From Gemmatimonadota bacterium (GTDB taxonomy: Bacteria > Gemmatimonadota > Gemmatimonadetes > Longimicrobiales > Longimicrobiaceae), in the NCBI GenBank assembly GCA_019348475.1, contig JAHWJJ010000058.1:1-14023 (forward strand): a stretch of 14,023 nucleotides of DNA. The letters are read 5' to 3'. Below are positions 8,301 through 13,026 of this stretch, piece after piece (position 1 is the stretch's first letter; each line of letters starts with the position of its first letter). The position numbers and the translations under genes are program-made. The notes beneath the pieces are model-generated. The model was not told the DNA's origin. It searched no databases and was given only the letters and a program-made list of their open reading frames with translations.

Positions 8301-11300
8301 CGCGGCGTTCGTGGTGCTGCAGTCGCTGCCGCTGACCGCCCACCGCAAGGTGGACCGCCGCGCCCTTCCCGCGCCCGATGCCGGGGCCGGCGCCGCCTGG
8401 GAGGCGCCCCGCACCCCCACCGGCGAGGTGGTGGCCGGGGTGTGGGGCGAGCTGCTGGGCGTGGCTCGGGTGGGGTGGACGGACGACTTCTTCGCCCTGG
8501 GCGGGCACTCGCTGCTGGCGACCCGGGTGGTGTCGCGCATGCGCGAGCTGTTCGGGGTGGAGCTGCCGCTGCGCACCCTGTTCGAGGGCCCCTCGCTGGC
8601 CGAGGTGGCCGGGGCGGTGGACGCGCTGCGGCTGGAGGGGGTGCTCCCCCCCGCGCCCCCCATCTTTCCCGTGCCCCGCGACGGCGAGCTGCCGCTCTCG
8701 TTCGCGCAGGAGCGGCTCTGGTTCATCGACCAGCTGCAGCCGGGCGAGAGCGCATACAACATCCCGGTCGCCTGGCGGCTGGTCGGGGCGCTGGACCTGC
8801 CGGCGCTGGAGCGCGCCCTGGCCGAGGTGGTGCGCCGCCACGAGGTGCTGCGCTCGGTGCTGCGCCAGGGCGAACAGGGCCCCGTGCAGGTGGTGCTCCC
8901 CGCCGGGCCCGTGCCCGTTCCGGTGGAAGATTGCTCCGCCCTTCCCGCGGAGGGGCGCGAGGACGAGGCGCGCCGGCGGGCGCGGGCGGAGACGGAGGCG
9001 CCCTTCGACCTGGCCGCGGGTCCCCTGTTCCGCGCCCGCCTGCTCCGCCTGGGCGAGCGGGAGCACGTGCTGCTGGTGACGATGCACCACGCCGTGAGCG
9101 ACGGGTGGAGCATGGGGGTGCTGTTCCGCGAGATGGCGGCGCTGTATGGCGCCTTCGCCCGCGGCGAGGACAGCCCGCTCGCGGAGCTGCCGGTGCAGTA
9201 CGCCGACTTCGCCGCCTGGCAGCGGCGGTGGCTGGACGGCGACGTGCGGGCGGCGCAGCTGGCGTACTGGCAGGCGCGGCTGGCCGGCGCCCCCGCCGTG
9301 CTGGAGCTTCCCACCGACCGCCCCCGCCCCGCCGTGCAGAGCCTGCGCGGCGCGCAGGAGCTGGACGTGCTTCCCGCCGCGCTGCTGGACGCGCTGCGCG
9401 CGCTGGCCCGGCGCGAGGGGAGCACGCTGTACATGGTGCTGCTGGCCGCCTTCAACGTCCTCCTTTCCCGCTGGTCCGGGCAGGACGACCTGGTGGTGGG
9501 CACCCCCATCGCCGGGCGCAACCGGCGCGAGACGGAGGGGCTGATCGGACTGTTCCTCAACACGCTCGCCCTGCGCGGCGACCTTTCCGGCAACCCGCCG
9601 TTCCGCGCCCTGCTGGCCCGCGTGCGCGAGACCACGCTGGGCGCGTACGCGCACCAGGACCTCCCCTTCGAGGCGCTGGTGGAGGCGCTGCAGCCGGAGC
9701 GCTCGCTGGGGCACACCCCGCTGTACCAGGCCCTCTTCGCCCTGCAGAACCTGGGCGTGGGGCGGCTGGAGCTCCCCGGCGTGCAGGTGAGCGGGATGGG
9801 GCTGGGCACCACCAGCAGCAAGAACGACCTTTCGCTGTACGCCTCGGAGGCGCCGGAGGGGCTGCACTGCTCGCTCATCTACAACCCCGACCTGTTCGAC
9901 GCCGCCACCATGGGCCGCATGCTGGGCCACTTCCGCGTCCTGCTGGAGTCGGTGGCCGCCGACCCGTCGCGCCCGGTGGCGGAGCTGGAGATGCTTGCCG
10001 AGGACGAGCGCGCGCGGGTGCTGCGCGAGTGGAACCGCACCGACGCCGCGTGGCCTTCCGCCGCCACCGTGCACGGGGTGATCGCGGAGCAGGCGGCGCG
10101 CACCCCGGACGCGCCCGCCGTCGTCTTCCGCGGCACCTCGCTGACGTACGCGGAGCTGGATGCGCGCGCCAGCCGGCTCGCCCATCACCTGCGCGCGCTG
10201 GGCGCCGGGCCGGAGGCGCGCGTGGGCATCTGCCTGGAGCGCTCCGCGGAGACGGTGGTCGCCATCCTGGCCGTGCTGAAGGCCGGCGCCGCGTACCTTC
10301 CGCTGGACCCGGCGTATCCCGCGGAACGGCTGGCGTACATGCTGGAGGATTCCGGCGCCCGCCTGCTGGTGACGCAGGAGTCGCTGCGCGCGCTCCTTCC
10401 CGCCGCCGGGGCCGCGGTGGTCTCGGTGAACGGGGACGCGGAGCGGATCGCGGCGCGGCCGGCGGAGGCGCCGGCGGACGGGGCCGATCCCCGCAACGCC
10501 GCGTACGTCATCTACACCTCCGGCTCCACCGGCCAGCCCAAGGGCGTACAGGTGACGCACGGGAACGCCGTCAGCTTCTTCGCGGGGATGGACGAGCGCG
10601 TGGGCGGCCCCGTCCCCGGCACCTGGCTGGCGGTCACCCGCACCAGCTTCGACATCCACGTGCTGGAGCTGCTGTGGACGCTGGCCCGCGGCTTCAAGGT
10701 CGTCGTCCAGCCGGAGCTGGCGGGGGCGGATGCGCCCGGGCGCCGCGCCCGCCGCTCCACCCGGCCCATGGCGTTCTCCCTCTTCTACTTCTCCAGCGGC
10801 GGTGAGGCCGGCGCGGGGGACAAGTACCGCCTGCTGCTGGAGGGGGCAAAATTCGCGGACCGCAACGGCTTCGACGCCGTGTGGACGCCGGAGCGGCACT
10901 TCCACGCCTTCGGCGGCGTGTTCCCCAACCCCGCCGTGGTGGGCGCGGCGGTGGCGGCGGTCACGGAGCGGGTGGCCATCCGCGCGGGGAGCGTGGTGCT
11001 GCCGCTGCACGACCCGCTGCGCGTGGCCGAGGAGTGGTCCGTGGTCGACAACCTGTCCCACGGCCGCGTGGGCGTCTCGTTCGCCAGCGGGTGGCAACCC
11101 AACGACTTCGTGCTGGCGCCGGGGGGGTACGCCGACCGCCGCGAGCAGATGTTCCGCGACGTGGAGACCGTCCGCGCCCTCTGGCGGGGCGAACCGGTGA
11201 CGCGCACCAACGGGGTGGGGAAGGAGATCCCGGTGCGCGTGCTTCCCCGCCCGGTGCAGCCGGAGCTGCCGGTGTGGGTGACTGCGGGCGGCTCGCCCGA

Positions 11301-13026: not shown

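Follow-up and report, generated by a model that had tools for sequence, protein, structure and literature searches.

What does a monooxygenase embedded in a glycine-activating adenylation (A) domain do when the assembly line continues beyond it? The question is raised by a 14,023-nucleotide stretch of the Gemmatimonadota bacterium assembly GCA_019348475.1 (Longimicrobiaceae; contig JAHWJJ010000058.1, positions 1 to 14,023), hereafter called the window. One of its genes, gene C (5365..13026, on the + strand like all features described here; likely ATG start), encodes a nonribosomal peptide synthetase (NRPS) of 2553 amino acids with the order C-A-PCP-C-A(LLM)-PCP, where C is a condensation domain, PCP a peptidyl carrier domain and LLM a luciferase-like monooxygenase. 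A first-pass annotation, made from the sequence alone, had placed the LLM between motifs A4 and A5 of a glycine A domain. The feature is real and intact, comes from Gemmatimonadota, belongs to an already known kind of interrupted A domain, and is placed for elongation. The kind itself was known from MtaG/MelG, SolF, the crz-like clusters and four glycine-activating domains with a monooxygenase (MOX) domain; what is new here is a genome survey of A(LLM) units.

An intact monooxygenase within an intact adenylation domain

The LLM (10768..11793, 342 amino acids) was recognized both by profile and by fold. The TIGR04020 (MupA/Atu3671) profile, the search proposed in the first-pass annotation, matched it over model positions 1-341 of 341 with a score of 513.7 bits, the cut-off being 244.45, which upheld the assignment to this subfamily. 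Pfam Bac_luciferase matched the same segment at 163.5 bits. No match in the 14 control genomes reached the TIGR04020 cut-off. Given the full-length profile match and the Bac_luciferase score, the LLM match is not due to chance. Of the LLM alignment columns that are near-invariant (one residue in at least 95% of 103 other rows), the window keeps 77 of 79. A chance open reading frame or a separate gene was rejected as an explanation on the strength of the open frame and the full profile match.

The LLM lies in frame between A4 (FDIHVLEL, 10648-10671) and A5 (NVYGPTE, 12028-12048). All of the motifs named earlier were recovered in their places in the first + frame, among them FKVVVQPE (10693-10716), THLQCTPS (11872-11895) and GGEALP (11962-11979). 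The span of 10717..11850 that had been given for the monooxygenase describes the insertion together with its linkers, one leading from the A4 part to the LLM (10717..10767, with model residues 232-239 poorly predicted) and one from the LLM to the A5 part (11794..11850), but the LLM proper is confined to 10768-11793. The N-terminal part of the host A domain (10030..10716) retains A3 (YTSGSTGQPKG, 10504-10545) and A4, and the C-terminal part (11851..12720) retains A5, A7 (YRTGD, 12292-12318), A8 (12346-12405), A9 (12556-12585) and A10 (NGKLDRR, 12616-12636). The module opens with a C domain (8683..10017; PF00668, 389.8 bits; motif MHHAVSDG at 9082-9105) and closes with a PCP (12706..12897, motif LGGHSL). 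An alignment with the window's two uninterrupted A domains shows the LLM and its linkers in place of a few residues of the loop that joins the strand following A4 to the helix preceding THLQCTPS.

The structure prediction that had been suggested for this region gave an A domain complete around a PuwE-like barrel, that is, two complete domains, so that disruption of the A domain by the insertion was rejected. Sequence and model agree that the core A motifs are unbroken and the A fold complete around the insert, and the motif coordinates together with the fold across the insert confirm the A4/A5 site. An a8-a9 insertion like that of SolF was also rejected, since no insert lies between A8 and A9, both of which follow the LLM.

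Read across the insertion, the ten-residue substrate pocket is DILQLGVVWK, the same reading as had been obtained before. It differs at two of ten positions from DILQLGMIWK, the code that a 2025 compilation gives as common to four glycine-activating domains with a MOX domain (PMC12283262). Among 72 relatives with an embedded LLM, described below, the fully read codes followed DI[LV]Q-[LMIF]-G-[ML]-[IV]-W-K, with L087 carrying V at the seventh place; the pocket was read only partly in L044, L073 and L083. The final K was missed by the pattern in 11 rows (L047, L054, L071, L072, L075, L076, L077, L081, L082, L086 and L088), the other nine residues of which fit, the seventh being M, V or F. Judged by these codes, a predicted glycine-type pocket travels with the LLM insertion across the sample, and the window A domain would load glycine. 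The identity of the domains, the intact motifs, the glycine-type pocket of the window and the two-domain fold model are established.

Distribution and module context among relatives

For the survey of named genomes, at least 580 relatives were ranked against an alignment of five LLMs embedded at A4/A5, and the 80 with the highest similarity were covered. In 72 of these 80 the LLM lies behind A4 of an A domain, a proportion that is biased toward the embedded arrangement by the query and makes no statement on absolute frequency. The 72 come from 13 phyla by their record labels, and many are metagenome-assembled genomes (MAGs). A5 was found after the LLM in 70 of the 72; the exceptions are L044, where the pattern missed it, and L083, whose sequence stops before that point. 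The remaining eight consist of five myxobacterial loci, the cyanobacterial loci L079 and L090, in which the LLM lies outside any A domain, and L095, in which it is separate. The five myxobacterial loci (L059, L061, L068, L080 and L093) form one clade (support 100) and have an A domain without recognizable A3, A4 or A5; they go on directly to a C domain, no carrier motif intervening, as read from the sequence in L059 and L061 and from motif order in L068, L080 and L093.

A scan of the phylum found TIGR04020 above its cut-off in 19 of 395 genomes, with at least 24 matches, a lower bound since at most five candidates were scored per genome. Nineteen of these 24 lie behind A4 of an A domain (L001, L005, L007, L008, L009, L096-L106, L109, L110 and L111); the contigs of L009 and L109 stop short of the A5 side. 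The other five are L107, between a ketosynthase (KS) and a ketoreductase (KR) domain of a polyketide synthase (PKS), and L108, L112, L113 and L114. Within the family of the window's genome, two of 11 genomes exceeded the cut-off. The first-pass annotation had called oxygenase-interrupted A domains few among characterized systems. This stands but does not extend to genomes, given the 72 embedded loci among the 80 best-ranked relatives of this biased sample, and the arrangement looks commoner in genomes than the few characterized antibiotic cases imply.

One locus of the scan has a different layout. In L113 the LLM follows a C domain and lies between short A8-like and A9/A10-like stretches, with the main lobe of the A domain gone; it may be a decayed insertion of the SolF type. 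Genome G018, to which L113 belongs, also has two A4/A5-embedded LLMs, L005 and L110.

The domains next to the A(LLM)-PCP unit were classed for 69 loci. For the downstream side these were the window and 68 of the 72 embedded loci, L019, L078, L083 and L094 having given no usable segment; if the PCP was the last domain of its gene, the longest open frame nearby was taken, by a mechanical rule, as the following gene. By Pfam, a KS followed in 31, a C domain in 11 (window included), a thioesterase in six and none of these in 21, and per-locus phmmer searches agreed. The upstream side was classed for the window and a different 68 of the 72. Here Pfam gave a C domain in 40 and a formyltransferase in 28, and single-sequence phmmer gave a C domain in 37, a formyltransferase in 29 and neither in three. 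A formyltransferase upstream was combined with a KS downstream in 15 of 69 loci by phmmer, for example in L028, L050, L051 and L087 of four phyla. The first of these, from Caldimonas manganoxidans (6349-17901), was scanned whole and shows Formyl_trans-A(LLM)-PCP with a glycine pocket, followed by a gene with KS, acyltransferase, KR, dehydratase, carrier and thioesterase domains.

As a KS or C domain comes next in 42 of 69 loci, release in the manner of myxothiazol is not the usual context in the sample, and cluster annotation should not presume amide release from an A(LLM) domain. The commonest context, as predicted from the neighboring domains, is elongation, in contrast to the chain release of the two classical cases. 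At roughly even odds, modules with an A4/A5-embedded LLM are mainly elongation units that hand an oxidized glycine to a C or KS domain, with release the minority. The window would then make an internal alpha-hydroxyglycine, and formyltransferase-A(LLM)-PCP units coupled to a PKS would be a widespread version, with no product found in the papers searched, that starts polyketides from N-formyl-alpha-hydroxyglycine. Open-access papers yielded no literature on a formyltransferase combined with a monooxygenase domain in an NRPS or PKS setting, nor any on alpha-hydroxyglycine with adenylation and monooxygenase domains or on TIGR04020.

Proposed reaction and its alternatives

By analogy with the known systems, we propose, with a probability of about 0.6, that the module loads glycine and that, during elongation, the PCP-bound glycine is hydroxylated by the LLM at its alpha carbon, the hydroxyl group being retained. 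The A domain would activate glycine and load it onto the PCP, and the upstream C domain would have the growing chain acylate the PCP-bound glycine. With O2 and with reduced flavin (FMNH2) supplied by a separate reductase, the LLM barrel in the A4/A5 loop would then hydroxylate the acyl-glycyl-PCP at its glycine alpha carbon. The resulting N-acyl-alpha-hydroxyglycyl chain would pass to the opening C domain of gene D, which comes next and of which the window holds the 5' part (13023..14023, likely GTG start). Genes C and D overlap by GTGA (13023-13026) if the likely start codons are used, and gene D opens with a C domain (13149-14021, 265.9 bits) that is truncated where the contig stops. Within the limits of the contig, the glycine module of gene C is internal in the assembly line. 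We infer glycine loading, the flavin chemistry, the sequence of events and that the hydroxyl is kept. An unacylated carbinolamine is expected to lose ammonia, and hydroxylation was placed after condensation for this reason. An alpha-hydroxyglycine produced in this way would be reactive and could serve as a handle for cleavage or for further substitution, and an oxygenase built into a glycine module would make that module a compact part for predicting or engineering alpha-hydroxyglycine products.

Alpha-hydroxylation of glycine in the course of elongation was favored because MupA works alpha to a carrier-bound thioester, because this reaction has been assigned to MtaG, MelG and SolF, and because the next gene opens with a C domain. 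MupA of mupirocin biosynthesis, after which TIGR04020 is named, is a two-component FMN monooxygenase that, when supplied in vitro with FMN, NADH and Fre, alpha-hydroxylated a beta-keto thioester attached to its carrier (+16 Da), and gave no product from a free pantetheine substrate or with a second acyl carrier protein (ACP) (PMC10952193). It resembles the proposed reaction in acting on an ACP-bound thioester; unlike the window LLM, it is free-standing and its substrate is a beta-ketoacyl polyketide. The glycine alpha-hydroxylation assigned to these three goes with cleavage in MtaG/MelG and with retention in SolF (PMC10204066). MtaG and MelG, of myxothiazol and melithiazol, carry the monooxygenase between a4 and a5 of a glycine A domain, as the window does, which bears out the comparison drawn in the first-pass annotation. 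Compared by description rather than by sequence, they differ in that their chain is released as an amide and a thioesterase follows, where the window has a C domain; a terminal module of this type, with thioesterase and amide release, was not found in the window. SolF, of solanimycin, also combines a glycine A domain with a flavin monooxygenase, keeps the hydroxyglycine and continues the chain, as proposed here, but its insertion is at a8-a9 rather than a4-a5. Among the characterized examples described in these sources, only SolF, with its other insertion site, keeps the chain going, and the elongating placement predicted for the window is common in the sampled genomes.

Several points weigh against the proposed reaction. 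Alpha-hydroxyglycine amides can break down, and the same insertion in MtaG/MelG serves chain cleavage, not retention. The contig stops 1 kb into gene D, and 21 of the 69 modules are followed by no KS, C domain or thioesterase as classed. No close relative of the cluster lends support, as none of nine same-genus genomes had a TIGR04020 match over the cut-off. Two genes of the flavin-reductase family PF01613 lie elsewhere in the window's genome, but they are weak support, this family having been matched in 13 of 14 control genomes as well. Two near-invariant glycines of the LLM are changed (G222A and G325I, counted from 10768). These last substitutions, together with a flavin binding that is only predicted, would suit an LLM that is catalytically silent and a structural passenger of the A domain. 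This is very unlikely, however, with 77 of 79 near-invariant columns kept, the frame open over 2553 amino acids and a score well over the cut-off.

The C domain that comes next argues for retention and elongation over release. Were the chain instead released as for myxothiazol, the glycine would be hydroxylated, the carbinolamide would collapse, and the upstream chain would leave as a C-terminal amide with glyoxylyl-PCP left behind. That is the role assigned to the a4-a5 insertion of MtaG/MelG (PMC10204066), and carboxamide release by a glycine-hydroxylating domain is described for myxothiazol (PMC9396620). The crz-like clusters of Serratia and Pseudomonas, 38 pathways with a MOx in the glycine A2 domain, are suggested to yield truncated linear products (PMC11342130), although there, unlike in the window, A2 lies in the last module. 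For the window such release is unlikely: what comes next is a C domain and not a thioesterase, encoded by a gene with a 4-base overlap, and across the sample a thioesterase is downstream in six of 69 loci, against 42 with a KS or C domain and 21 with neither. It is also quite unlikely that the LLM acts on another position or substrate, such as nitrogen or the preceding residue of the chain, or that it is a Baeyer-Villiger oxygenase. Varied oxidations have been assigned to LLMs of PKS lines, including chain shortening by CalD and MndB (PMC8739492), and the five myxobacterial loci, with their LLM in a decayed A domain and no carrier motif before the next C domain, suggest that an LLM may serve a neighbor's carrier; the A domain and PCP of the window are intact, however, and a predicted glycine pocket accompanies the insertion throughout the sample.

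Relationships of the LLM and the other genes of the window

In a quick tree of LLM sequences the window falls in a 10-row set (support 97), the other nine rows of which are actinomycete A4/A5 units. Its nearest LLM is L110 at 66% in the tree set, and L045/L023 at 63% in an alignment without L110. The closest solved structure by sequence is PuwE (PDB 6ket, 402.6 bits; 52% identity in the fold match), titled as the OX domain of a hybrid PKS/NRPS; its two nearest tree rows are the cyanobacterial L079 and L090, in which the LLM is not in an A domain. PuwE and other non-embedded LLMs fall among the A4/A5 rows, the A4/A5 label needs six changes on the tree, and a single origin of the insertion is neither shown nor excluded. 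Over 70 units, pairwise LLM distances correlated with those of the two A parts at 0.54 and 0.71, and the A parts with each other at 0.53. The correlations of LLM with A part are about as good as or better than that between the parts, as joint inheritance of the unit would predict. No branch length separates the LLM of L104, from a genome of the same class as that of the window (G400), from the LLM of L088, which belongs to a Gemmatimonadaceae MAG. This tie also placed the window's genome in Gemmatimonadota, with Longimicrobiaceae as a tentative family.

The window is one whole contig of a draft genome of 4.08 Mb in 504 contigs, estimated as 76.6% complete. The first A domain of gene C (about 6880-8400) has the pocket DAGDMGHVTK, with FDAFGG at A4 and HRKVD at A10; this code was matched to no substrate. 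Gene B (1979..5368), which overlaps gene C by ATGA (5365-5368) if the likely start codons are used, encodes C-A-PCP with the A code DVWHVSLVDK, close to the serine code. Gene A is represented by its 3' part (1..1815), which encodes a KR-like and a carrier domain and therefore places a PKS module upstream of the NRPS modules. The KR-like domain has a weak score (44.6 bits) and by eye apparently lacks the usual catalytic Tyr/Asn pattern, and for these reasons it may be inactive.
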